A stretch of DNA of 46,528 bases from a virus: IMG/VR virus record IMGVR_UViG_3300033148_008098, positions 1-46,528 of that record. The stretch is one strand, 5' to 3'. The position numbers and the translations under genes are program-made. The notes beneath the pieces are model-generated. The model was given only the letters and a program-made list of their open reading frames with translations, ran no database searches and was not told the origin of the DNA. How positions within the stretch are numbered: the stretch's first letter is position 1; every line of letters begins with the position of its first letter. Below are positions 2,919 to 39,448 of the stretch, piece by piece.

Positions 2919-3662
2919 ATGGATGCCCATAGTGAGGAGACAATCGATCTCCGCGGCTGTAAATTATCAACAACCTTAAAGCTACCCGAGTCGATCGGTG
3001 GAGGACTCAACCTCAGCGGCTGTGTATTGCCCGACGGGGTGAAGCTACCCAAGTCGGTGGGCAAGTGGCTCGATCTTCGCGGCTGTGTATTGCCTGCCGG
3101 GGTGAAGCTGCCCGAATCGGTGGGCAAGTGGCTCGACCTCAGTTACTGCTCCACGTTGCCCGATGGTTTGATGCTGCCCAAGACAGTAGGCGATTCGCTT
3201 GACCTTCGCGGCTGTGTATTACCTGCTAATCTGACGCTACCCAAGTCGATCGGTGGAGGACTCGACCTCAGCGGTTGCTCATTGCCTGTTGGTCTAACGC
3301 TGCCCGAGTCAGCAGGCGGTTGGATTGACCTTCGCGGCTGTGTATTACCTGCTAATCTGACGCTACCCAAGACAGTTGGCGATTGGCTCAATCTTCACGG
3401 TTGCGTGCTACCCGACGATTTGAAACTGCCCGAGTCGATAAGCAGTTTCCTTGATCTCGGCGATTGCAAGCTGCCCGTTGGGTTGAAACTACCCAAGACA
3501 GTGGGCGCGTGGCTTGACCTTCGCGGCTGTGCGCTGCCCGTTGGTCTGACGTTGCCCGAGTCAGTAGGCGGCAAGCTCTATATCGACGGTTGCACACTAG
3601 CTGAGGGTTGTACGACTGTCGATCAACTGTATCGCTGCATTCATGCAGCGGAGGCTCACTAA
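2919..3662 (+). CDS. Leucine-rich-repeat-like protein, about eleven 21-residue units
   Basis: Product of 247 residues, ATG 2919 behind AACAGGAGATGAG. Almost the whole protein is a solenoid of about eleven 21-residue repeats with the consensus LDLRGCVLPxGLxLPKSVGGW. Nearly every unit has Cys at position 6 after the two ladder leucines. Unlike the paralogue at 1755 it has no long N-terminal domain; the final unit (LYIDGCTLAEGCTTV) is capped by a short helix with a Cys and two His. Adjacent units such as RGCVLPANLTLPK recur nearly unchanged, which suggests expansion by unequal recombination. It probably acts as a binding scaffold; no enzyme motif is visible. Confidence 0.7.
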   Translation: MDAHSEETIDLRGCKLSTTLKLPESIGGGLNLSGCVLPDGVKLPKSVGKWLDLRGCVLPAGVKLPESVGKWLDLSYCSTLPDGLMLPKTVGDSLDLRGCVLPANLTLPKSIGGGLDLSGCSLPVGLTLPESAGGWIDLRGCVLPANLTLPKTVGDWLNLHGCVLPDDLKLPESISSFLDLGDCKLPVGLKLPKTVGAWLDLRGCALPVGLTLPESVGGKLYIDGCTLAEGCTTVDQLYRCIHAAEAH

Positions 3663-5383: not shown

Positions 5384-5566
5384 ATGATGATGAAAACAAA
5401 AACTCAGCCGATCAGCGGTCGATGCCCGGCAGTTGTGATCGAATACGATTGCCGAGATACTCGGAAGATGAAACGATTCGAGAATCCGTTCGAGGCCCGT
5501 CGGTTCTGGATTGCAAAGGACAAGGCGGGGAAGAATCCACGAGTGAGAAAGGGAGACCTGAGATGA
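5384..5566 (+). CDS. Small basic protein coupled to the ATPase gene
   Basis: Product of 60 residues with three possible ATGs (5384, 5387, 5390). It reads as a small beta-alpha unit (VVIEYDCRDTRKMKRFE, then NPFEARRFWIAKDKAGKNP). The pattern of an ARRFWIAKDKAG helix is seen in many small phage proteins of unknown role. Its TGA (5564-5566) overlaps the ATG of the ATPase gene (5563), so translation is coupled. Function unknown. Confidence 0.5.
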   Translation: MMMKTKTQPISGRCPAVVIEYDCRDTRKMKRFENPFEARRFWIAKDKAGKNPRVRKGDLR

Positions 5567-7035
5567 ATGTAGTAGAACGATTCCGGCATGCTCGTCGTGC
5601 CGGGGTGCCTTTGGTGGCAATCAACACGCCAGACCCGAGGGGTACGATGGAGATGTTGGCTATGCTGGCCAACAGTAAGAGTCCGATTGTATGTTGGGAC
5701 TGCATTGCGGGACTGCGGCCAGTCAATGACGCCGGACGAGAGGCTGTTGCGGGGGTCAACGCTGAGCAGGCCGAAGGCAATCCAATCGGATTCTTGGAAG
5801 TGGCAGCGGACCTACCCGATGGCACGGTCGTTTGCTTTCTCCAAGCAGACGCTTGGATAAATGAGCCACCAGTGATTCAAGGTGTCTGGAATCTCCGTGA
5901 GCCATACAAGCGAAGTCGCAGAACGTTGGTGTTACTGGCCCGGCAAATTCGACTACCGATCTCCTTACAGGGAGACGTGGTGGTGATGGACGAAGACTTG
6001 CCAGACCGAGAGACTTTAGAAACGATCGCACGTTCAATGGACGAAGCTGCTACAGATGCCAACCCGGAACGGCCGAAGGTGAGTGATGGCACAATTCAGA
6101 AGATAGTGGACAACACAGTCGGACTGTCCGCCTTCCTTGCCGAACAGGCTGTAGCTATGAGCTTGCGAAAGGATGGGTTCGATTTCAAGATGCTCGCCGA
6201 GAATCGCCGGATGATGATCGAGCAAACTCGTGGCCTTAGTGTAGACCGTGGACGGGAGACGTTCGATGATATCGGTGGATTGGAGCAAGCAAAGCGATTC
6301 GGCTGCGCCTTGTTTGAAGGTCCTCACCCACCGGCTCTGGTCGTGCGAATCGAAGAGATCGAGAAGGTAATGGCTGGCTCGCAGGGGGATACAAGTGGCA
6401 CAAGTCAAGACGCTCTCCAGGTTGTGCTCAACTCGATGGAAGACAATGATTGGGACGGCATCGTGGCGTTTGGTTGTCCTGGTGCTGGCAAGTCCCTATA
6501 CTCCAAGACCCTGGCCAACACGTTTGGAGTGTTGAGTTTGGCACTGGATTTGAACGCAACGAAAGGGTCGCTTGTGGGGGAATCGGAAAAGTATGTACGG
6601 GAGGCTATGAGTGTGATCGAAGCCATCGGTGGAGATCGAGTGTTCTTCGTTGCCACAGCCAACCGACTGAACACGATTCCCGGAGAGTTACTTCGACGAT
6701 TCCGAGGTGGGATTTGGATGTTCGATTTCCCAGGAGATGAGGAACGAGAACGAATCTGGCCAATCCACCTCGGTAAGTTCGACCTCGATGATGATGGGAG
6801 ACCGGATGATCGAATGTATGCCGGTTCGGATATCCGAAACTGTTGCGAACGTGCTTGGAAAATGGGCAACACGTTGCAGTATGCTTCACAATTCATCGCT
6901 CCGGTTGGCAAGACGGCTCGAGAGGTGATCCGCGATGCTCAGAAGTTGGCCGATGGCAACTTCCTGTCTGCTTCTCAGCCTGGTCTGTATCGAGGACCCA
7001 AAGCCGAAAAGAAGGGACGGAGTGTGGAGGTGTGA
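5563..7035 (+). CDS. AAA+ ATPase, apparently circularly permuted, Ycf46-like N-terminus
   Basis: Product of 490 residues, ATG 5563 behind GGGAGACC. The N-terminal region (RFRHARRAGVPLVAINTPDPRGTMEML, read in two blocks) resembles the pre-ATPase domain of Ycf46-type AAA proteins. Walker A is GCPGAGKS (residues 304-311), sensor 1 is ATANR (364-368) and an ELLRRFR arginine region follows. Nothing resembling Walker B lies between Walker A and sensor 1. Instead a Walker-B-like strand, ALVVRIEEIEK, with the usual downstream sequence MAGSQGDTSGTSQ, lies before Walker A (about 258-278). That order suggests a circular permutation of the AAA+ fold. Neighbours resembling DUF3150, DUF1257 and DUF2997 follow. 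A remodelling ATPase is likely; its target is unknown. Confidence 0.8.
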   Translation: MNVVERFRHARRAGVPLVAINTPDPRGTMEMLAMLANSKSPIVCWDCIAGLRPVNDAGREAVAGVNAEQAEGNPIGFLEVAADLPDGTVVCFLQADAWINEPPVIQGVWNLREPYKRSRRTLVLLARQIRLPISLQGDVVVMDEDLPDRETLETIARSMDEAATDANPERPKVSDGTIQKIVDNTVGLSAFLAEQAVAMSLRKDGFDFKMLAENRRMMIEQTRGLSVDRGRETFDDIGGLEQAKRFGCALFEGPHPPALVVRIEEIEKVMAGSQGDTSGTSQDALQVVLNSMEDNDWDGIVAFGCPGAGKSLYSKTLANTFGVLSLALDLNATKGSLVGESEKYVREAMSVIEAIGGDRVFFVATANRLNTIPGELLRRFRGGIWMFDFPGDEERERIWPIHLGKFDLDDDGRPDDRMYAGSDIRNCCERAWKMGNTLQYASQFIAPVGKTAREVIRDAQKLADGNFLSASQPGLYRGPKAEKKGRSVEV

Positions 7036-7062: not shown

Positions 7063-7980
7063 ATGAAGAGTCAATTATTCGACAACACAGTGTGCTTGGC
7101 AGTGACGTTTCACCGTGCTGGTCAGCATCGAAGAGTGCGTCGAGGTGAGGCTGAAGTGGTCAATGCTTTCAATCAAGGCAAAAAGCCAGATCAGGACCGG
7201 TTTTCGATTGGGAAGAGGATTTTCGATAGCGAGCACTATCGAGCTGCGATGAGGATCGCCTATGAGTTTGATGTCTGGGTCCAGCGTCGATCGGTTCCCT
7301 GCCCTTTGAGGCGGGGAACACACTTGATCCCGATTGACTTGCTCGACGAGATCTGTGCTCGCTTAGATGAAGCTCAAGCCAGATATGCTACCGAAGCAGA
7401 TGCTTTAGTGGCTGAATATGACGAGTTGAAGCAAGCCGCCCGGATGGGGCTTAAGGATCTGTATCGGGAAGCGGATTATCCGGCTCCCGAGCAGTTACGG
7501 CAATCGTTCTGGGTTGAGCGGCGGATGTTCGACTTCTCTCCGCCTAGCGAGACAAAGCTCAGCGAAGCTGTGTACCAACAAGAGCGGAGTCGTTGGCAGC
7601 AGACGTTCGCAGAGGCTGAGAATGAAGTGCGGCAGGCCTTGCGAGAGTCGATGCTGACGCTGGTGTCACATTTGGCCGAGCGGTTGGAGCCGTCGCCGGA
7701 TGGGAAGAAAAAAGTCCTCCGCGACTCGGCCGTCGATAAGGTGGTGGAATTCTTGGAGTTGTTTGATCGACGGAACGTGCTGAATGACAAGGAGTTGAAG
7801 GCTCTGGTCGTTCGAGCCCGTCAAGTGCTGAGTGAAGATAGTGTGATGGCCGAAGCGCTTCGGCAGGACGGGGCCGTTCGCGAGATCGTCCGTCGAAGGA
7901 TGGAGGAAGTCAAGACACGACTGGATGCGCTTGTTGAAAGCGGTCCGGCACGAGTGATTACTTTTGATGAGGAGGTCTGA
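7063..7980 (+). CDS. DUF3150-like helical protein
   Basis: Product of 305 residues, ATG 7063 behind ATAGGAGACC. The N-terminus (NTVCLAVTFHRAG) is a short beta unit, then a helical region with WVQRRSVPCPLRRGTHLIP and long charged helices (residues about 95-290). The overall size, N-terminal strand, central aromatic turn (YPAPEQLRQSFWVE) and helical tail resemble the DUF3150 family, which is often encoded next to AAA+ ATPases in phages. It lies directly downstream of the ATPase gene and is a likely partner. The family match is from memory and tentative. Confidence 0.55.
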   Translation: MKSQLFDNTVCLAVTFHRAGQHRRVRRGEAEVVNAFNQGKKPDQDRFSIGKRIFDSEHYRAAMRIAYEFDVWVQRRSVPCPLRRGTHLIPIDLLDEICARLDEAQARYATEADALVAEYDELKQAARMGLKDLYREADYPAPEQLRQSFWVERRMFDFSPPSETKLSEAVYQQERSRWQQTFAEAENEVRQALRESMLTLVSHLAERLEPSPDGKKKVLRDSAVDKVVEFLELFDRRNVLNDKELKALVVRARQVLSEDSVMAEALRQDGAVREIVRRRMEEVKTRLDALVESGPARVITFDEEV

Positions 7981-7983
7981 ACC

Positions 7984-8304
7984 ATGCCATGCTGGGAAGT
8001 CAGGACGATGAGCGTTGAGTTCAAGGTCAAGCATGTAGCATTGCTGCGAGAGGCAGTCAAAGCTCTTGGGTGGTTTTACGAGAATATGCCTACCGGGTTG
8101 AGAGTCAGGGCATCAACTTCGGAGACATTCGAGATTGATTTCACATTGGGGAGAGCAGAGATACAGACAGAGCAATTGCCGCGGTTGAACCAACTCAAGC
8201 GGCAGTATAGCAAAGAGGCATTAAAGCGGGCCGCCAGGTTGCGTGGTTGGCAATTCAAGCAACAGTCTGGACAACAGCTAGCGAAAGGAGTACTTCGGAA
8301 ATGA
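7984..8304 (+). CDS. DUF1257 (Ycf35-like) protein
   Basis: Product of 106 residues; ATG 7984 follows the GAGGAGG that ends the previous gene (ATG 8008, MSVEFKVKH, is an alternative). It has the DUF1257 pattern: a start of the type MSxxxxVKHVALLREAVKALG, a central beta region with a Glu/Asp pattern, and the C-terminal helix QLKRQYSKEALKRAARLRGW. Ycf35 is a small plastid/cyanobacterial protein of unknown function. It overlaps the next gene by ATGA, and together with the AAA+ protein forms a compact module. Confidence 0.6.
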   Translation: MPCWEVRTMSVEFKVKHVALLREAVKALGWFYENMPTGLRVRASTSETFEIDFTLGRAEIQTEQLPRLNQLKRQYSKEALKRAARLRGWQFKQQSGQQLAKGVLRK

Positions 8305-8507
8305 ACGACAAGATCAAGTGGGAGATTCTCGAAGATGGCACAGTCTCGATCGAGACCGACCAGATAAGCGGGCAGAATCACTTGTCTGCGGACGAGTTGT
8401 TGGAAAGCCTTGCTGACATGCTTGGTGGCCCAGTGAAGATCAAGGAACGGAAGGGGCATATACACAAACATCGGCATGCTCAGCATGAGCAACTCCACCG
8501 TCACTAG
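8301..8507 (+). CDS. DUF2997-like small protein
   Basis: Product of 68 residues, ATG 8301 overlapping the previous TGA. The first 45 residues (IKWEILEDGTVSIETDQISG, then a Ser/Leu helix ending LADMLGG) follow the DUF2997 pattern: a beta hairpin with the G-T/E-V core and a conserved helix. The tail is His-rich (HIHKHRHAQHEQLHRH), an unusual metal-binding-like addition. Small DUF2997 proteins are typically encoded beside DUF1257 proteins, which fits here. Function unknown. Confidence 0.6.
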   Translation: MNDKIKWEILEDGTVSIETDQISGQNHLSADELLESLADMLGGPVKIKERKGHIHKHRHAQHEQLHRH

Positions 8508-15977: not shown

Positions 15978-16787
15978 ATGAGGGTGAGTACAGAAGATGC
16001 TGTTGCCATCTGCCAGGATTATGGATTTCTAACGGCAGATGGATGGACGGAAGAGAAGCTGTCGAAGAAGTTGGGTGAGCTGGTGCAGCTCTACCGCTCC
16101 GGCGAGTTTGAGGTAGGGGATAACAGATTGGAGGACCTGTTGAAGCAATTGGCTGTGGCAGATGAGGCTGGAGAGCAGTTGGAGATCGGTGATGGAGAGG
16201 ATCTTGGTCCGAAAGATGAAAAGGCTGTTGTTGAGGGCTGTCCGTTGGGAATTAACGATCGCGTGATCGTGCGGGATGGTGATGTTGATTGGAAGGGGAT
16301 CGTGGACGAGGTTCTTGGGCCGGATTATGTGATGGTCCGTGATCGGGCAGGGGAAACTTGGGAGGTGGCAGTGGAGACGTGTGAGCTGAAGAAGCGAGCT
16401 TCCGAGAGCGAAGTTTCCGAGCCGACAGTTGAAAAGTCTGAGCGGGAACGGAAGTCTCCGAAAGATGAGGATGAAGCGGAGATCCGTAGTCTTCAGGAGC
16501 GCATTCGGGCTTTGAAGAAGAAGAAGAAGAGGAATAGTGGAGGCAGGAAGACGAAGCCCAAGAAGTTGCGACGGGATGAGATCGCCATCCGTGTGCTGCG
16601 AGCGCATCCAGAGGGGGGCATTTTAGAGCATCTGGCTGAGGAGGTGGAGGAGCGGTGGGAGAAGCAGGGACGTCAGGCCAATCTCCAAGCGTCGACATCG
16701 ACGCTCAAGCGATTGGTGAAAGCCGGCATTTTGTTCGGACTGCTCAAGATGGACGGGAGGAAGGTGTTGTGGATCGATTCCGAGTGA
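15978..16787 (+). CDS. KOW/Tudor-like plus winged-helix protein, function unknown
   Basis: Product of 269 residues; ATG 15978 follows ACAGGAGAAC. The N-terminus is acidic and helical. Residues about 95-140 form a small beta barrel (INDRVIVRDGDVDWKGIV, then DYVMVRDRAGETWEV), like KOW or Tudor folds. A Lys/Glu-rich coiled linker (IRSLQERIRALKKKKKR) leads to a C-terminal winged-helix unit (EIAIRVLRAHPEGGILEHLAE, then STLKRLVKAGILFGL). It overlaps the queD start and opens the deazaguanine operon. It may be a regulator or nucleic-acid adaptor; the family is not recognised. Confidence 0.55.
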   Translation: MRVSTEDAVAICQDYGFLTADGWTEEKLSKKLGELVQLYRSGEFEVGDNRLEDLLKQLAVADEAGEQLEIGDGEDLGPKDEKAVVEGCPLGINDRVIVRDGDVDWKGIVDEVLGPDYVMVRDRAGETWEVAVETCELKKRASESEVSEPTVEKSERERKSPKDEDEAEIRSLQERIRALKKKKKRNSGGRKTKPKKLRRDEIAIRVLRAHPEGGILEHLAEEVEERWEKQGRQANLQASTSTLKRLVKAGILFGLLKMDGRKVLWIDSE

Positions 16788-17185
16788 CGAGACGATTCGA
16801 GTTTGACTCTGCCCATCGGCTCTGCGGTTATGATGGGCCGTGTGGACGAATACATGGCCATCGTTACGTGTTGGAAGTCACGTTGGAAGGGCAGGGTCTG
16901 GACGAGATGGATATGCTTGTTGACTTTGCACAAATCAAGTCTCTGGTGCAACCTTTGATTGATGGATGGGACCACAATTCTTTGCTTTGGCACGCCGATC
17001 CGTTATGCGAAAAGGTAAATGCCGTGGTGCCGTTGTCTTCGCAGCCGACAGCGGAGACAATAGCCCGGCTGGTTTGGTGGTTCGTCGTCGAAACTATGGA
17101 GTGGGCAGAGATTAAGGGTGTTCGTTTGGTGAACGTCCGACTTTATGAGACTCCTGATTGTTGGGTGGACTACAGCGATGTCTGA
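16769..17185 (+). CDS. queD: QueD, 6-carboxytetrahydropterin synthase
   Basis: Product of 138 residues with a GTG start at 16769 (GGGAGGAAGG upstream; GTG 16784, overlapping the previous TGA, is an alternative). The PTPS/QueD fold is evident: RRFEFDSAHRL near the start, Cys25 followed by RIHGH (His29 and His31 for zinc), LVDFAQIK, WDHNSLL, the PTAETIA motif and RLYETPD. It converts 7,8-dihydroneopterin triphosphate to 6-carboxy-5,6,7,8-tetrahydropterin, the second step to preQ0. It is the first of seven overlapping deazaguanine genes. Confidence 0.9.
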   Translation: MDRFRVTRRFEFDSAHRLCGYDGPCGRIHGHRYVLEVTLEGQGLDEMDMLVDFAQIKSLVQPLIDGWDHNSLLWHADPLCEKVNAVVPLSSQPTAETIARLVWWFVVETMEWAEIKGVRLVNVRLYETPDCWVDYSDV

Positions 17186-18071
17186 CGTGATGGACCTGAC
17201 GAATCTGTCGTGCGGTATGTCTTATGCTGATCAGTATGGGAAGTGGCTTGAGTTGTTCAAGCGGGTAGCGGAAGCTAGGGATATCCAGGTGATGAACTCA
17301 CCAAGATCGTGGCGACCGCTGCTTCTGTATTTGGGAGCAGATACGTTTGGAGAGCGAGTCCATTTTGTGGAAGACGAATTGGTTGGGGACACACAGTTAG
17401 GATTTGCTACGGCCGAGCGGAAAGGTATGGAGCGAGAGTATGTGGAGAGCGTGTGCTCACTTCGGCCAGAACTTGCGGACGCATTGTGGAAGAGCGATTG
17501 TCAGTGGCAGACGGTTGGCCGTCGTCACACTATGAAGAGGGAATTCGTAGTGGCCAATTATCTTGCCTATTATCGACCGGAGATCTTGGAATATTTGACT
17601 CTGCTGGAGTCGTATGAGAAGCCGAATCATGTGCAGAACTGCGTCGTGACGAGTTGTAGTGCAGACAAGCCTTATCCTGCAGTGTTGCACAAAGCTATAG
17701 CGTCAGTGCTTCCAGATGATTCGTGGCATCAAGTTATTGCGACGGGCGTTCTAGGCGTCGTGCCACAAGAGCTTTGGAGTCGGATGCCATTATACGATTC
17801 TGGTGTTGCTAACAAGTGGCGATGCCAAGTAGCATGGGAAGGCTATTTGGCAAAGACTTCGTATCGTAGGGTTGTTCTCTATACGGAGTTCTATGCTTCG
17901 TGTGTGATGCGTGCTGCATCACACATGATAGCTGCTGGTTCAATAGAGGCCGTGCTGCCAGTTGGAGGTCAGAATGACTACGTAGATTTGGTTGCACCGG
18001 AGTGGCTAGGGCGTTTGGAAGCTGTGCTTCAAGTAGAGCCGCCTCGTGCTTCTGCTCGATTTCTTTTGTGA
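17178..18071 (+). CDS. ArcS-core-like protein acting on deazaguanine (DpdL-like?)
   Basis: Product of 297 residues, start ATG 17178 overlapping the queD stop by eight bases (ATG 17190 is an alternative). The segment VTSCSADKPYPAVLH (Cys160, Lys164, Pro165, Tyr166, His171) matches the C-x3-KPY-xn-H signature of the archaeosine synthase (ArcS) core, although the final His is one residue closer than in archaeal ArcS. ArcS changes the nitrile of preQ0 in tRNA to a formamidine with lysine as cofactor. Phage relatives are thought to modify the inserted preQ0. Substrate and product here are inferred from context only. Confidence 0.65.
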   Translation: MSDVMDLTNLSCGMSYADQYGKWLELFKRVAEARDIQVMNSPRSWRPLLLYLGADTFGERVHFVEDELVGDTQLGFATAERKGMEREYVESVCSLRPELADALWKSDCQWQTVGRRHTMKREFVVANYLAYYRPEILEYLTLLESYEKPNHVQNCVVTSCSADKPYPAVLHKAIASVLPDDSWHQVIATGVLGVVPQELWSRMPLYDSGVANKWRCQVAWEGYLAKTSYRRVVLYTEFYASCVMRAASHMIAAGSIEAVLPVGGQNDYVDLVAPEWLGRLEAVLQVEPPRASARFLL

Positions 18072-18085
18072 ATGGGAACGGATGA

Positions 18086-18739
18086 ATGAAGAAGAGCGTT
18101 TTAATCTACTCTGGTGGTTTGGATTCGACAGTGCTACTTTGTTCACTGCTGGATGAAGGGCGGCAGCTGAAGGCATTGGGATTCGACTATGGCCAGCGGC
18201 ACAAGCGAGAACTGGCTGCGGGAGCGTCGATAGCGGCAGATCTTGGCGTCGACTATCGAGTCGTCGAACTCCCATTGGGTTCACTCTTAGTGTCAGCCTT
18301 GACTCGTCTGGAGTTGGACGTGCCGGAGGGACATTACGAGGATGAGAATATGAAGCGTACTGTAGTACCGAATCGGAATATGATTATGCTTGCTATAGCG
18401 ATCGGCTACTGCTCGAGCATCAAATTCGATTCAGTTTGTTTTGCTGTTCATACTGGGGACCATGCTATCTATCCAGATTGTCGACCTGAGTTTGTGGCAG
18501 CCATGAAGAAAGTTGCTCGACTTTGCGATTGGCGATCGATAGAGGTCGAAGCTCCGCTTCTTAGTTTGTCGAAAGCGGACATCGTCGTTTTGGGTTCTCG
18601 TATATCAGCACCTTTCGCACAGACATGGACTTGCTATCTAGGATTAGACAAGCATTGCGGGAAGTGTGGTTCGTGCATCGAGCGGCGGGAAGCATTCATG
18701 CTGGCGGGAGTAGAAGACCCAACGCAGTATATCGCATAG
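18086..18739 (+). CDS. queC: QueC, 7-cyano-7-deazaguanine (preQ0) synthase
   Basis: Product of 217 residues, ATG 18086. The PP-loop SGGLDS is at residues 9-14, and a zinc site at the C-terminus uses Cys183, Cys191, Cys194 and Cys197 (HCGKCGSC), as in bacterial QueC. The mid-region YGQRHKRELAAG and PNRNMIML are also canonical. It converts 7-carboxy-7-deazaguanine to preQ0 with ATP and ammonia. No glutamine amidotransferase domain is fused, so it is not a Gat-QueC. Confidence 0.95.
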   Translation: MKKSVLIYSGGLDSTVLLCSLLDEGRQLKALGFDYGQRHKRELAAGASIAADLGVDYRVVELPLGSLLVSALTRLELDVPEGHYEDENMKRTVVPNRNMIMLAIAIGYCSSIKFDSVCFAVHTGDHAIYPDCRPEFVAAMKKVARLCDWRSIEVEAPLLSLSKADIVVLGSRISAPFAQTWTCYLGLDKHCGKCGSCIERREAFMLAGVEDPTQYIA

Positions 18740-18748
18740 GGAGTGGAT

Positions 18749-19246
18749 ATGCATCTCATGATGGAGTACACGTTCCATGCTAGTCACTGGAACGAAGAGT
18801 TCTTCGAAGTTGAGAAGATCTATCAAGCACATGCTTTCGAGTTATTACGGAATCAGCATGGGCATTTATGGACTGTGAGGGTCGACGTGAGTGGTGATGC
18901 TCCGGGTGGTGTTGTATGCGACTACAATGATGTGCAAGCCCTGATTCATACGTTGGATTTCACTTTTCTACCGCTTCACCCTTTGACGTTAGGGTATCTG
19001 GCTGCTCGCGAGGGAGTGACAGTAGAGGAGTTGATGCTTCTACCAGTCTGGGGAACGTGTGGAAAGTTGGAGGTGTTGCTTGCTGCTCTTACGAGAAGAT
19101 TGGCGAGCTTGATCGCTAGACCTGGCTTGAAGCAGATGGTAGTGCATCTGTATGAGACGGGGCCGGAAGCGGCAAGAAATGTTAAGTCTCTAAGTGCTAG
19201 CGAGTTGGTGGTATTCGATATGGATGGGAAACCGAGCTATGTCTGA
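18749..19246 (+). CDS. Second QueD/PTPS-like protein without the catalytic Cys
   Basis: Product of 165 residues; ATG 18749 is preferred, five bases after GGGAG (GTG 18743 is in frame). The PTPS fold is recognisable: YTFHASHW at the start, QHGHLWTV in place of CGRxHGH, a CDYNDVQALI block like VDFxxIK, and VVHLYETGPE at the end. The Cys four residues before the first His of HGH in queD is Leu here, so ordinary QueD chemistry is doubtful, while the zinc histidines look kept. It may be a diverged partner, a lyase with another substrate, or a structural subunit. It lies inside the operon between queC and queE. Confidence 0.75.
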   Translation: MHLMMEYTFHASHWNEEFFEVEKIYQAHAFELLRNQHGHLWTVRVDVSGDAPGGVVCDYNDVQALIHTLDFTFLPLHPLTLGYLAAREGVTVEELMLLPVWGTCGKLEVLLAALTRRLASLIARPGLKQMVVHLYETGPEAARNVKSLSASELVVFDMDGKPSYV

Positions 19247-19859
19247 GTTGCTGGAAGTTGTGGATATTTGGAAGACAATCCAAGGGGAAGGCCCCTTTGT
19301 GGGCCATCCAGCAGTATTTGTCCGCCTTGCTGGATGTAATCTGAGTTGCCCGTGGTGTGATACAGATCATCAGACGGGCAAGCAACAGATGTCTCCGCAG
19401 CAGATCTGCGATAGAGTAGACATGCTAGGGGACAATGCCCGTCTTGTAGTGGTGACCGGAGGGGAGCCTTTTTTTCAAGATGGAGTCTGTGATCTGTTAG
19501 CAATGCTCGCTTTGTATCATGCGGTGCAGGTAGAGACGAATGGGACGATTTATCCGTTGGAGAAAGTGCCTCGGTCGGTCAAAGTTGTCTGCTGTCCAAA
19601 GCCGGAGAGTAAGGTCAGTCCGCATTGGCGTTACCGAGTCGATGCGTGGAAGTACTTGGTGCAGGCTGGCTGCTTGTCGGGTAGAGGATTGCCGATGGAC
19701 GTTGAGCCCCCACCTGGAGGTGTGCCAGTTTACTTGCAGCCGATGGATGAGCGGGATGATGAGAAGAATCGGCAAAACCTTGAGGAGGCAGTCCGGGCTT
19801 GCCTTAATTGTGGGTATGTGCTCAGTGTCCAGCTACACAAGATTATAGGGGTGGAGTAG
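19239..19859 (+). CDS. queE: QueE, 7-carboxy-7-deazaguanine synthase
   Basis: Product of 206 residues, ATG 19239 overlapping the preceding stop. Radical-SAM cysteines are CNLSCPWC (Cys33, Cys37, Cys40); the substrate loop IQGEGPFVGHPAVFVRLAG precedes them and the SAM-binding VVVTGGEPFFQ follows. It turns 6-carboxytetrahydropterin into 7-carboxy-7-deazaguanine. The length is close to that of typical bacterial QueE. It is part of the operon with 8- to 10-base overlaps and short gaps. Confidence 0.95.
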   Translation: MSELLEVVDIWKTIQGEGPFVGHPAVFVRLAGCNLSCPWCDTDHQTGKQQMSPQQICDRVDMLGDNARLVVVTGGEPFFQDGVCDLLAMLALYHAVQVETNGTIYPLEKVPRSVKVVCCPKPESKVSPHWRYRVDAWKYLVQAGCLSGRGLPMDVEPPPGGVPVYLQPMDERDDEKNRQNLEEAVRACLNCGYVLSVQLHKIIGVE

Positions 19860-19870
19860 GAGATGAAGGG

Positions 19871-20752
19871 ATGGCTACACTTGAGCTGAGTTGGGCGGAA
19901 GTGATCGAGCGGGCAGAGAAGCTGTCGAGGAGAATACCAGACCACTCGTTCATCTACCCGATCCCTCGTGGGGGTATGTTTGCTGCGCTAGCTATCGCCG
20001 CTGTCGATAGAAGGAGTTGCTTTACGATTGTGGCAAAGAGGGAGCAAGCGACTGCCTATGTGGATGATGTTGTTGATTCGGGGGAAACGCGAAGGCGATA
20101 TGCAGATAAGCCGTTTTACGCTCTCGTGAACAAGCCAGTCGAGGGTATCGGTGAGTGGGTCTCGTTCCCGTGGGAGAGAATAGATGGAGAGGTGGCGGGC
20201 CCTGAGGAGAACATCCGGCGGTTGATTGAGTATATCGGAGACGATCCAAATCGGGAGGGATTGCGGGAGACACCACAGCGAGTGATTCGTAGTTACGATG
20301 AACTCTTCTGTGGCTATTCTCAAGATGCTTCTCGTGTGCTGAAAGTGTTTAATGATGACAGTTGTGATGAGATGGTGGTGGTTAAGGACATCGAGGTATA
20401 CTCGATGTGTGAGCATCACATGCTGCCGTTCTTCGGTCGTTGTCATGTGGCGTACATTCCAGATGGCCGGGTCGTAGGAGTGAGCAAGCTCGTGAGGCTG
20501 GTAGAGATCTACGCTCGTCGCCTCCAAATCCAAGAGCGTTTGTGTGAGCAAGTGACCGAAGCTTTGGACAAACATCTGAAGCCGAAGGGTTCGGCGTGTG
20601 TGATCGAGGCAGTTCACTTCTGCATGACGAGCCGTGGAGTGCAGAAGCAGCACTCGAAAATGATCACGTCGAGCCTTACTGGGGGGTTTCGTGTTGCAGA
20701 AACTAGGATGGAATTGTTTGGCTCTCTGCAGATGGCATCGAGAGTACGATGA
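19871..20752 (+). CDS. folE: Phosphoribosyltransferase-FolE (GTP cyclohydrolase I) fusion
   Basis: Product of 293 residues, ATG 19871. Residues 1-100 are a type I phosphoribosyltransferase: PPi loop PIPRGGM (30-36) and PRPP loop DDVVDSGET (65-73). Residues about 110-293 are GTP cyclohydrolase I with REGLRETPQRV, zinc ligands Cys180, His183 and Cys251, the SKLVRLVEIYARRLQIQERL helix and the C-terminal SRGVQKQHSKMITS block. FolE makes dihydroneopterin triphosphate from GTP, the first step to preQ0. The fused transferase could salvage a purine or deazapurine base. No linker is obvious, so both domains were read as a single frame. It overlaps dpdA. Confidence 0.9.
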   Translation: MATLELSWAEVIERAEKLSRRIPDHSFIYPIPRGGMFAALAIAAVDRRSCFTIVAKREQATAYVDDVVDSGETRRRYADKPFYALVNKPVEGIGEWVSFPWERIDGEVAGPEENIRRLIEYIGDDPNREGLRETPQRVIRSYDELFCGYSQDASRVLKVFNDDSCDEMVVVKDIEVYSMCEHHMLPFFGRCHVAYIPDGRVVGVSKLVRLVEIYARRLQIQERLCEQVTEALDKHLKPKGSACVIEAVHFCMTSRGVQKQHSKMITSSLTGGFRVAETRMELFGSLQMASRVR

Positions 20753-21867
20753 GTTTGATTTTGGATAGTGGCGCTTATTCAGCATGGACGAGTGGGACCG
20801 AGATTTCGCTGGATGACTACATTTGTTTCTGCAAAGATCATCCTGAAATAAGCTACTATGTCTCTCTCGATGTCATCTCTGGCAAGCCTACGGATCGTAA
20901 AGTCAGACGAGAAGTAGTGGAGGAAGGAAGCGATCGGAGCTGGAAGAACTACCAGAGAATGATTCGGGAGCTTCCTTTTGAGAAAGTGATCCCTGTTTTT
21001 CATCAAATCGATTCTCTACGCTGGTTGGATCGCTATCTGGGGTTTGGCGTGCCTTATCTTGGGATAAGCCCTAACCAACGGTTCAGTTCGAAGCTTCGGC
21101 TAGATTGGTTGTTGTATACGGTGAAGCCTCGACTCCCATCAGCACTGAAGACGCATGGATTTGGATTCACTTCACTTGATATGTTGGCTTTGGGATGGAC
21201 GTCAGTGGATTCTGCCCGTTGGATACATATGGGTGCTATGGGATCGATACTAGTACCGAAGAGGACGAGAGGACAATGGGATTTCTTGAAGACACCGACG
21301 CAAGTGGCCGTTACGAGTAATCAAAGCAGGGGATTTACTGGAGCGGCGTTGTTTGATGGGGCGTTGTACAGCGTGGCGGATACGAGATATCCTCACTATT
21401 CGAGCTTGACCCCTTTAGTGCGAGCTGAGTTTGATGAGTGGTTGCTGGAGAACAATATGTCACTTGGGGATTTCGAGATTGTGGAGGTTCCTGATAATTA
21501 CAAGCTCATACGAAAGCGGGGTGGTTGGAGTGAATGCTTCGTGGGTCCGAGGACGATAGTTCGGCCGACGAAGGCTGGTGTTGTGTCGAATCATCTTTGT
21601 CGAAAGTGGATGAACATGATGTTCACGATTAGGCTAGCGGAAGTAATTCCTGTAGAGAAGCTGTACTTCGCTGGGCATACTGGGTACTTTTCTTCGAGGA
21701 GATTTGAAGAGCACATGCCGAATCGGTTGCTATCGTATTTCTACTGGCTCAGGCGAGGTTCGGAAATCAGCAAGACGTTTGAGTATCATTTTGCTCGAAT
21801 GCGAGAGGAGCAAGCAGATGTTGGTTCTCAGCCGGAAGAAGAACGAAAGTATCGTCATCAACGATGA
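20749..21867 (+). CDS. dpdA: DpdA-like DNA guanine transglycosylase
   Basis: Product of 372 residues, ATG 20749 overlapping the folE TGA. The start LILDSGAYSAW is the TGT-fold substrate-loop motif, with SLDVISG and GISPNQRFSS further on, as in phage DpdA relatives of tRNA-guanine transglycosylase. The zinc CxCxxC of bacterial Tgt is not seen. DpdA exchanges guanine in DNA for preQ0. As the last gene of the preQ0 operon it is the step that moves the base into phage DNA and probably protects it from host nucleases. Confidence 0.85.
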   Translation: MSLILDSGAYSAWTSGTEISLDDYICFCKDHPEISYYVSLDVISGKPTDRKVRREVVEEGSDRSWKNYQRMIRELPFEKVIPVFHQIDSLRWLDRYLGFGVPYLGISPNQRFSSKLRLDWLLYTVKPRLPSALKTHGFGFTSLDMLALGWTSVDSARWIHMGAMGSILVPKRTRGQWDFLKTPTQVAVTSNQSRGFTGAALFDGALYSVADTRYPHYSSLTPLVRAEFDEWLLENNMSLGDFEIVEVPDNYKLIRKRGGWSECFVGPRTIVRPTKAGVVSNHLCRKWMNMMFTIRLAEVIPVEKLYFAGHTGYFSSRRFEEHMPNRLLSYFYWLRRGSEISKTFEYHFARMREEQADVGSQPEEERKYRHQR

Positions 21868-27364: not shown

Positions 27365-28330
27365 ATGGTGGCGAAGAAACAGAAGATCACGAAGGTGTTT
27401 GCTTTGTACTGCGGAGATTGCTGCGAGGTGCTGCCGAGCTTGCCGGAAGAGTCTGTCGGTTTGAGCGTTTTCAGTCCTCCGTTCGCCGACTTGTATACTT
27501 ACACGGATGATTCGAGGGATATGTCTAACAGTAGCTCCTACGAGGAGTTTTTCGGACATTTTTCGTTTCTTGTGGAGCAATTGGAGCGGTTAATGATGCC
27601 AGGGCGGATCGTGGCCGTCCATTGCATGGAATTGCCGACACACAAATCTCGCGGTGAGGAGATTGGCATCAAGGATTTCCCCGGAGACATTGTACGGTGT
27701 TTTCTGCGGTATGATTTCGTGCAGCACTCGCCGAGGATCACGATCTGGAAAGATCCGCTGTTGGCGGCCGTTCGCACGAAGGCGATCGGTCTGGCACACA
27801 AGCAGATTGTCAAAGATTCGGCGTTCTGTCGAACCGGGATACCGGATTATATCATAGCGTTTCGCAAGCGAGGAGAAAATCCGGTGCCGGTTCGGCATGT
27901 AGATGGATTGACGGAGTACTGCGGGTCCAGGCGGGTGCCTGCAAAATTGGATGGATTTATCGGCTGGGGAGGTGAGCAGAAGAGAAACAAGCGGTCGCAT
28001 TGGATATGGCAACAGTACGCGAGTCCAGTGTGGTTTGACGTTCGTCAGACAAACGTACTCTCGCATCGGGAGGCAAGAGATGGGGATGATGAGAAGCACA
28101 TCTGCCCACTTCAACTCGACGTGATCGAGCGGTGTGTAGCCTTGTGGAGTGCCCAGGGAGATGTGGTGTTGACTCCGTTTATGGGAGTCGGATCGGAAGT
28201 GTATGTGGCTGTGAAGAATCGGAGGAAGGCGATCGGCGTCGAGTTGAAGGAATCGTACTTTGATCAAGCTGTGAAGAACTTGGAAATGCTTAGAATCAGA
28301 AAGAAAAGGGAAGCGAGACTGAATCTATGA
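27365..28330 (+). CDS. DNA methyltransferase (SPPF-type, N4/N6 class)
   Basis: Product of 321 residues; ATG 27365 follows the helicase stop. Motif IV is SPPF (37-40) near the N-terminus and motif I is FMGVGS (272-277) near the C-terminus, the beta-class order. The last 30 residues (AIGVELKESYFDQAVKN) are the SAM-binding tail. SPPY/F motifs fit cytosine-N4 or adenine-N6 chemistry. No restriction partner is nearby, so it is probably an orphan enzyme that adds a second protective mark besides deazaguanine. Confidence 0.8.
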   Translation: MVAKKQKITKVFALYCGDCCEVLPSLPEESVGLSVFSPPFADLYTYTDDSRDMSNSSSYEEFFGHFSFLVEQLERLMMPGRIVAVHCMELPTHKSRGEEIGIKDFPGDIVRCFLRYDFVQHSPRITIWKDPLLAAVRTKAIGLAHKQIVKDSAFCRTGIPDYIIAFRKRGENPVPVRHVDGLTEYCGSRRVPAKLDGFIGWGGEQKRNKRSHWIWQQYASPVWFDVRQTNVLSHREARDGDDEKHICPLQLDVIERCVALWSAQGDVVLTPFMGVGSEVYVAVKNRRKAIGVELKESYFDQAVKNLEMLRIRKKREARLNL

Positions 28331-29259
28331 TTGAAGAACTTTACAAGAAACATCGTCCGAGCAGTCTCAAGCAGGTGATCGGGCAAGATGACGTGGTTCG
28401 GCAGCTTGTGGATTGGGGACGCAGGAGAGTGGTACCTCACTTCTTGTTGTTCACCGGTCCGAGCGGGGTGGGAAAGACGACCGTGGCTCGCATTCTTCGG
28501 AGGAAGCTGGGTTGTGGAGATGCAGATTATACGGAGGTGAATGCAGCAGACGCTCGCGGTATCGACATGGTACGGACTATTCGGTCCAATCTGATGCTGG
28601 CCCCGATCTCGGGCAAGTGTCGATTTTGGACGATTGACGAATCTCATCAGTTGACTTCTGAAGCACAGAACTCATTCTTGAAGATGTTGGAGGATACGCC
28701 AGAGCATGTCTGGTTTGTCTTGTCGACGACCAATCCACAGAAGTTATTGAAGACGATCGTCACCCGGGCCACCGAGTTGAAGTTTCGATCATTGTCGAGT
28801 AGGGACTTGGAACTTGTGATTGCGACGGTGATGGCGGCTGAGAATCAGAAGTTGCTTTCTCGCGATGTGATGGATCGGTTGGTGGACGCCGCCGAGGGCT
28901 CTGCTCGCAAGGTGCTAGTTTTATTGCACGCGATAATAGGGTTGAAGGACGAGGATGAGCAACTCGATGCGATCGCCAAGGGAGACCACAAGTCTCAGGC
29001 GATCGAACTTGCTAGATTGTTGATGCGTCCGGGAGTGTCTTGGTCGGAGGTAGCCAAGGTGCTAAAGAGTGTAGATGAGGAGCACGAATCATTGCGTCGT
29101 ATTGTTCTCGGGTATAGCCGCTCCGTTCTTTTGGGTGGTGGAAAGGCGAGTCGTCGAGCTGCTGTGGTGATCGACCGATTTCAAGATGCTTTGTATGAGT
29201 CGGGAGCTGCTGGACTCGCTTTGGCATGCTACGACGTTGTTTGCCCAGAAAGGGAGTGA
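28327..29259 (+). CDS. Clamp loader AAA+ subunit
   Basis: Product of 310 residues, ATG 28327 (ATGA overlap). The RFC/DnaX pattern is clear: LYKKHRPSSLKQVIGQ at the start, Walker A GPSGVGKT (44-51), DES Walker B (104-106), then NSFLKMLEDTPEHVWFVLSTT and an Arg finger-like VTRATEL. It loads the clamp encoded at 21997. No second loader subunit is visible, so it may act as a homo-oligomer like T4 gp44. Confidence 0.9.
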   Translation: MIEELYKKHRPSSLKQVIGQDDVVRQLVDWGRRRVVPHFLLFTGPSGVGKTTVARILRRKLGCGDADYTEVNAADARGIDMVRTIRSNLMLAPISGKCRFWTIDESHQLTSEAQNSFLKMLEDTPEHVWFVLSTTNPQKLLKTIVTRATELKFRSLSSRDLELVIATVMAAENQKLLSRDVMDRLVDAAEGSARKVLVLLHAIIGLKDEDEQLDAIAKGDHKSQAIELARLLMRPGVSWSEVAKVLKSVDEEHESLRRIVLGYSRSVLLGGGKASRRAAVVIDRFQDALYESGAAGLALACYDVVCPERE

Positions 29260-38671: not shown

Positions 38672-39448
38672 ATGGATATAGTAAGTTTTAGCGGTGGTAA
38701 AGACTCAACTGCAATGCTGCTTCTTATGATAGAAAAGAGCATGCATATAGATCGGATTGTTTTTGTGGATACTACTAAAGAGTTTCCTCAAATGTATACT
38801 CATATAGAAAAGGTTAAGTCATTCATTAAACCTTATGAAATCGAAACGGTTAAAATTGACTATGACTATTGGTTTGCTGATCACATCAAGACAAGAGGTA
38901 AGAACAAAGGAAAAAAGGGGTACGGCTGGCCGGATTTTAGAAATAGGTGGTGCACGGCATTGAAGCGAGAAGCCTTTTTATCACAAGTTAATAGTAATAG
39001 TTACAACCCAAGAAAACGTGGATGTCAAGTTAGAAAACGTGGATGTATAGAGATAATTGAACATCACGGTATCGCCTATGATGAAAAGAACCGGTGCAAA
39101 AAGAACGAAGGTTGTATCATAAAATATCCTTTGGTAGACTGGAAGATAACGGGAAAACAAGCTCTTCAATATTGTTATTCCAAAGGTTTTGATTGGGGCG
39201 GTCTATATGAAAAAATGCATAGGGTCTCTTGTTGGTGTTGCCCTTTATCACGGATAAGCGAACTAAGAATTTTGCATAACGAATTTCCGGAGTTATGGGA
39301 TGAACTAATTCGAATGGATAAAAAATCATTTCGCAGGTTCCGAAGCGATTACTCTATTGAGCAGTTGAAGGAGCGGTTAGAGAAGCAGATGACTGAGGAA
39401 GAGGAAGAGGAGGAAGAAGGAAGTGGAGGCGTTCAGGTAGTGAGATAG
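38672..39448 (+). CDS. PAPS-reductase/PP-loop family protein, probably acquired
   Basis: Product of 258 residues, ATG 38672. The PP-loop is FSGGKDSTA (residues 5-13), followed by VDTTKEFPQMYTHIE and a Cys-rich lower part (WCTALKR, then VSCWCCPLS). This fits the phosphoadenosine phosphosulfate reductase superfamily, which in phages and DND-type systems can act in sulfur transfer. A short internal repeat lies around residue 113 (RKRGC twice). The gene is clearly A+T-richer than its neighbours and has other codon use, except for the final WLEKQM-like tail, which is shared with the membrane protein at 38219. Confidence 0.7.
   Translation: MDIVSFSGGKDSTAMLLLMIEKSMHIDRIVFVDTTKEFPQMYTHIEKVKSFIKPYEIETVKIDYDYWFADHIKTRGKNKGKKGYGWPDFRNRWCTALKREAFLSQVNSNSYNPRKRGCQVRKRGCIEIIEHHGIAYDEKNRCKKNEGCIIKYPLVDWKITGKQALQYCYSKGFDWGGLYEKMHRVSCWCCPLSRISELRILHNEFPELWDELIRMDKKSFRRFRSDYSIEQLKERLEKQMTEEEEEEEEGSGGVQVVR
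39367..39407 (+). repeat. 41-bp direct repeat, right copy
   Basis: Copy of 38533-38573 (one mismatch). It makes the final codons of the PP-loop gene read RLEKQMTEEEE, like the neighbouring membrane protein. From here on composition returns to that of the rest of the phage. Confidence 0.9.

Follow-up and report, generated by a model that had tools for sequence, protein, structure and literature searches.

A Predicted Ycf46-like AAA+ ATPase of Phages with a Core Probably Rewired by an Internal Segment Swap

Introduction

One invariant motif order is regarded as the hallmark of AAA+ ATPases: Walker A first, then Walker B, then sensor 1. In the 46,528-nucleotide stretch of viral DNA analysed here (IMG/VR record IMGVR_UViG_3300033148_008098, referred to as the window), the gene at 5563–7035 on the + strand encodes a protein of 490 aa in which a Walker-B-like strand stands before Walker A. 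The question raised by this locus is whether the core of the enzyme has really been reordered, and, if so, in what way. The first-pass annotation suggested a circularly permuted fold, and offered as an alternative that the early strand is fortuitous and that the enzyme lacks Walker B. As set out below, the protein is very probably a Ycf46-like AAA+ ATPase whose core has been rewired by an internal segment swap, and a function is proposed for it in outline.

Gene and Motif Order

The start of the gene at 5563 agrees with that of its relatives, and a further in-frame ATG lies upstream at 5422. The protein begins with an N-domain (residues 1–228; 5563–6246, + strand), which matches positions 19–258 of the canonical family in hhalign (E 2.1e-20) as well as phrog_8638 (E 2.5e-39), and which is probably AAA-like but degenerate, with no Walker A. 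It is followed by the α0 region (residues 229–257, FDDIGGLEQAKRF; 6247–6333, +), with a weak hhalign match in the canonical position (prob 83) and a helix at 241–252 in the AlphaFold2 model. Next comes segment B, the transposed piece (residues 258–297; 6334–6453, +), comprising β3, Walker B and α3 (GDTSGTSQ...MEDN); then segment A (residues 298–357; 6454–6633, +), with β1, Walker A, α1, β2, the pore-loop region, VGESE and α2; and finally segment C (residues 358–477; 6634–6993, +), with β4/sensor 1, the candidate arginine finger R379, β5 and the lid.

Walker A (GCPGAGKS) occupies residues 304–311 (6472–6495) and sensor 1 (ATANR) residues 364–368 (6652–6666), exactly where the first-pass annotation had placed them. 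The Walker-B-like strand and its downstream text, which it had also put ahead of Walker A, are found there, with VVRIEEIEK at 260–268, the stretch VVRIEEIEKVMAGSQGDTSGTSQ starting at residue 260, and GDTSGTSQ at 275–282, so that the motif order of the window protein is Walker B (within 258–297), Walker A, sensor 1. Likewise, as had been said, Walker A is followed by no acidic strand ahead of sensor 1: the two motifs are 60 residues apart, compared with about 98 in canonical relatives. The match of Pfam PF00004 to the protein is confined to 302–352.

Conservation of the Order among Homologues

Relatives of 30–80% identity were fetched by IMG/VR and genome scans. The family scans took as seeds motifs that lie beyond the core, namely AEQA[VT]AM and Q[GA][VIL]WNLRD in the N-domain and GWTG.. 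in the lid, so that retrieval carried no selection for motif order. The order Walker B, Walker A, sensor 1 was scored automatically in 151 of 159 distinct homologues; two more (L271 and L274), missed by the pattern, proved permuted by eye, and the remaining six are truncated or frameshifted. That is to say, all 153 non-truncated homologues have the rearranged order, and the canonical order occurs in 0 of the 159. In the same 159 sequences, a further Walker-B-like motif was nowhere found in the stretch from Walker A to sensor 1, and no intermediate, whether with two Walker B copies or with canonical order inside the clade, was found among them. In the first homologue set, Walker B lies 43–51 residues before Walker A, and sensor 1 lies 49–66 residues after it. 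Order and spacing are therefore conserved among phage relatives, a point that had been proposed for checking, and the early Walker B strand is not a chance resemblance.

The family members come from tailed-phage contigs, from the isolate Tunturiibacter phage Tunturi_3 (gp103) and from Nitrospira moscoviensis, the complete chromosome of which carries two permuted copies. An IMG/VR scan for close relatives that started from the Tunturi_3 protein was too specific and confirmed none. In one contig (L030, 3126–4082), the permuted gene is frameshifted after segment B.

Comparison with Canonical Ycf46-like ATPases

Canonical-order relatives were found in Rhizobium, Agrobacterium, Rhodobacter and Aeromonas phages as well as in IMG/VR, and in these phage relatives Walker A and Walker B are 55 residues apart. 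The phage form corresponds to phrog_8638 (Rhizobium phage L338C gp50, Aeromonas HJ05, Rhodobacter RcTiptonus), and the bacterial form used for comparison is the 517-aa Ycf46 of N. moscoviensis (Walker A 293, Walker B 348, sensor 1 394). In two of the canonical-order relatives (L172, 3974–6532; L173, 2374–4911), an intein/HNH-like insertion of about 270 aa splits Walker A between GPPGC and TGKS.

Homology of the N-domain to the Ycf46-like family was found by hhalign, by phrog_8638 and by tblastn to isolate phage relatives. The permuted and canonical profiles align in hhalign over 3–473 (E 4.5e-55), and in a separate second alignment residues 256–297 alone match canonical 354–395 (E 1.3e-11). 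When searched alone, block B falls on canonical 356–394 (E 4.9e-17), block A on 297–355 (E 3.6e-26) and block C on 396–478 (E 8.2e-16). Each block thus maps to its canonical place with B and A exchanged, which means that a segment of about 40 residues has been swapped with the adjoining block, and that the profile alignments do not yield the collinear core of a canonical Ycf46. Moreover, the permuted protein of N. moscoviensis can be aligned over its full length with the organism's own canonical Ycf46 (E 1.6e-26), with gaps at both sites, where segment B is absent in one case and inserted in the other.

A circular permutation of the whole domain was considered and rejected: the N-domain, α0, sensor 1, β5 and the lid stay collinear, the termini are unchanged, and the joined old termini and internal new termini of a strict circular permutation do not occur. 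Judged by these alignments, two adjacent blocks inside the domain have changed places, and the domain as a whole has not been circularly permuted. The earlier proposal is therefore upheld as to a permuted fold, which profile alignment, fold comparison, covariation and conservation all favour, and corrected as to its circular nature. A DE pair between Walker A and sensor 1 in homologues had been named as evidence against reordering; it was found only in the separate canonical-order Ycf46-like sister group, which serves as an ancestor-like reference and not as a refutation.

Predicted Fold and Covariation

AlphaFold2 predicted the window protein with a pLDDT of 86.3 (21 family sequences); for another member, L025, it predicted the AAA domain with a pLDDT of 91.7 and a pTM of 0.87 (46 sequences). 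The order of elements in the models is α0, β3, α3, β1, α1, β2, α2, β4, β5, lid. In VIA-align, the first model matches p97 D2 (Z 15.4, 202 residues, 3.1 Å), and the L025 model matches fidgetin-like 1 (Z 16.7, 212 residues, 2.6 Å) and Vps4 (Z 17.0), so that an AAA+ α/β core with a helical lid is recovered at Z 15–17 and 2.6–3.2 Å. The whole model also aligns to p97 D1-D2 over 1–467 with an rmsd of about 7 Å, and the nearest viral models by fold are phage Ycf46 proteins. The length aligned to AAA domains is approximately that of the domain minus the transposed 40-residue segment, presumably because the aligner follows chain order.

The new joints (295–297 and 357–359) are loops of about three residues in the models. 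At these joints, α3 would run on to β1 rather than to β4, and α2 to β4 rather than to β3; since both joints shift by one strand in the same direction, crossover handedness should be kept, as deduced from established AAA+ topology. There are strong grounds to hold that the sheet keeps its usual 5-1-4-3-2 strand order, and that a trans arginine finger comes together with Walker A, Walker B and sensor 1 as it does in AAA+ proteins generally.

Covariation was calculated from 154 sequences (Neff 109; 29,890 pairs). Among the top pairs, which were chosen after inspection, I263-A366 (the residues before the Walker B D and before the sensor 1 N) ranks 10, A258-G357 ranks 12, L259-G356 ranks 23 and L259-L324 ranks 32. 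A258 and G356/G357, which follow one another in the canonical chain, are 99 residues apart here, so that former chain neighbours still co-vary. Block shuffles gave P(max) of 0.018 for the old α2-β3 joint, 0.026 for β3-β4 and 0.039 for β3-β2, with P(mean) of 0.04 to 0.12 and block-level P of 0.02–0.15 overall; at the old joints α3-β4 and α0-β1, the 154 sequences gave no covariation signal. These data support, without proving, a position of β3 beside β4, β2 and the C-end of α2, its usual slot.

Probable Origin of the Rewired Core

In a tree of 60 permuted and 17 canonical rows, from which segment B was excluded, the two groups part at one branch with support of 100, the join between them involving long branches. 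The permuted family is a single clade, and the best reading is that the rewired topology arose once. The swap would have converted [β1(Walker A)-α1-β2-α2][β3(Walker B)-α3] into [β3-α3][β1-α1-β2-α2], the remainder staying in order, and the simplest route would be a tandem duplication of β1 to α3 followed, once, by loss of the outer halves. It is likely, on the whole, that through such a single ancient duplication and loss a phage Ycf46-like ATPase became a working motor of new topology, which replaced the canonical one in an equivalent cassette and spread in phages of Acidobacteriota, Nitrospirota and other hosts.

Gene Cassette and Proposed Function

Downstream of the ATPase gene, three genes follow on the + strand: a DUF3150 family protein (7063–7980; PF11348, E 4.4e-7), a DUF1257 (Ycf35)-like protein (7984–8304) and a DUF2997-like protein (8301–8507, within the listed ORF 8247–8507; start inferred at the ATG at 8301). 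The latter two have no direct Pfam match and were assigned by cluster hhalign, the former to DUF1257 clusters (prob 94 and 91) and the latter to the DUF2997 cluster (prob 82, E 1e-5). Across 131 permuted loci, same-strand neighbours include DUF3150 in 112, DUF1257-like in 110 and DUF2997-like in 106, and all three are present in 96. At 20 canonical-order phage AAA+ loci searched with cassette HMMs, DUF2997 occurs in 20, DUF1257 in 19 and DUF3150 in 3. Since DUF2997 and DUF1257 stand beside both gene types, the rewired and canonical ATPases occupy equivalent cassettes. In cyanobacteria, the ferredoxin gene fed7 clusters with DUF2997 and ycf35 (PMC4284462).

The two permuted genes of N. moscoviensis lie in chromosomal islands (L289, 5497–14807, and L288), the content of which is ribonucleotide reductase, a hypothetical protein, the permuted AAA+, DUF1257/DUF2997-like and DUF3150-like proteins, a DnaG-type primase and a helicase. 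In Tunturi_3, gp96 (L005, 9696–10655), annotated as an HNH endonuclease, matches a DUF3150 protein with 85% coverage and 36% identity.

It is proposed that the ATPase would hydrolyse ATP as a ring, that this ring would remodel a protein target together with its DUF1257, DUF2997 and DUF3150 partners, and that it would thereby do the job of the canonical-order AAA+ of equivalent phage cassettes. As a first guess, which is much more likely to prove wrong than right, the substrate might be a replication or ribonucleotide reductase (RNR)-related enzyme, because ribonucleotide reductase (adjoining the permuted gene in Nitrospira), an NrdG-like radical-SAM activase (in 29 loci) or replication genes are neighbours at some loci.

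Elsewhere in the window, the genes at 16655–21867 belong to a 7-deazaguanine pathway (QueD, ArcS-like, QueC, FolE, TGT-like), which suggests that the phage modifies its DNA with deazaguanine. The window also encodes a repeat protein with about ten LPxSIGGxLxLxGCxLP-like units (2919–3662) and a PAPS-reductase-like protein (38672–39448; PF01507).

Catalytic Residues, Selection and Alternative Explanations

The catalytic residues are kept throughout the family. The Walker A lysine, K310, within a GxxxxGK[S/T] motif, is present in 155 of 156 members, the sensor 1 asparagine N367 in 153 of 155, and the candidate arginine finger R379, identified from sequence, in 154 of 154. The reading that the early strand is fortuitous, and that the protein is an ATP-binding pseudo-AAA, draws on the fact that the window protein has RIEEIEK and not hhhhDE, with E replacing D at 264 as in 5 of 157 members. 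But the family as a whole carries hhhhDE there (D in 152/157, E in 157/157) and the segment is homologous to the canonical Walker B-α3, so this reading is hardly credible and was rejected. Even less credence is due to a gene in decay or to an artefact of sequencing, assembly or recombination, for which a near-copy from the same metagenome as the relatives of the window, and the frameshifted L030, could be cited. The same order recurs in 153 distinct homologues drawn from many samples, and its carriers include the isolate Tunturi_3 and a complete bacterial chromosome with two copies; moreover, pN/pS is far under 1 (window against L003, whole gene: pN 0.129, pS 0.754; segment B alone: pN 0.086), and the gene is under purifying selection. 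These independent isolates, substitution ratios and homologues refute the artefact and the pseudogene alike.

Two further readings accept the rewired core. Covariation and conservation do not distinguish contacts in cis from contacts in trans, and segment B of one protomer could in principle complete the sheet of its neighbour, with the active site formed in trans; such a subunit swap is improbable, because joints of about three residues make the reach across the protomer distance sterically hard and two monomer predictions are both confident for the segment. The other concerns function: with the fold correct, the protein may be a replisome loader or an anti-defence/host-takeover factor rather than a chaperone-like remodeller, which is a serious though not a favoured possibility. 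This reading draws on the clamp, polymerase and helicase (SNF2-type and DnaB-like) genes nearby in the window, on the primase and helicase that adjoin in Nitrospira, and on Rhizobium phage L338C, where a helicase and DNA polymerase I lie close to the canonical relative. Against it, the cassette partners are not among known replication proteins, the phage has its own clamp loader at 28327–29259, and the padloc matches to the AAA+ protein IetA are weak and local to Walker A. The chaperone-like remodeller with a segment-swapped core stays the preferred reading.

Relation to Known Systems

The permuted family shares with Ycf46-like ATPases a homologous N-domain, α0, Walker A block, Walker B-α3 block, sensor 1, lid and much of the C-terminus, as well as DUF1257 and DUF2997 neighbours in phages; the difference lies in the exchanged order of the Walker A and Walker B blocks. 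With the classical AAA clade (p97/CDC48 D2, Vps4, fidgetin, katanin, spastin), it shares the predicted fold, Walker A/B, sensor 1, the candidate arginine finger and the lid, but not the core topology. Generic AAA models match about 50 residues (22–32 bits) of the permuted protein versus about 240 (127 bits) of the canonical relative, and the CDC48, FtsH and IetA models match only its Walker A block.

Natural reordering of the core motifs of a P-loop NTPase with retention of the active site is also seen in the circularly permuted GTPases RsgA/YjeQ, YlqF and YqeH, the nearest known parallel. These, however, are GTPases with a whole-domain permutation, whereas the present protein, an ATPase, belongs to the AAA+ (ASCE) division and shows an internal segment swap. 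The MoxR-DUF3150-vWA set of Synechococcus phage MinM2 likewise has an AAA+ gene adjoining a DUF3150 gene, but combines a MoxR-type ATPase with vWA, unlike the permuted Ycf46-like ATPase with DUF1257/DUF2997; no vWA partner was found among the recurrent neighbour clusters scanned by Pfam, which are part of the neighbours. The literature searched, which lay largely outside the subscription journals, gave no earlier description of a permuted AAA+ core, and within it the present case would be a natural non-cyclic permutation of that core.

Significance

Annotation models rely on motif order, and Pfam and NCBIfam recognise just a fragment of about 50 residues here; genuine AAA+ proteins thus escape filters based on the order of motifs. 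That a large conserved family has kept all catalytic residues indicates that the central strands can be reconnected without loss of the AAA+ fold. Tunturi_3 gp103 and the two N. moscoviensis copies, which exist alongside a canonical paralogue, offer culturable test systems, and the family lets one ask, in a natural variant, which connections are required for the motor to transmit ATP hydrolysis.
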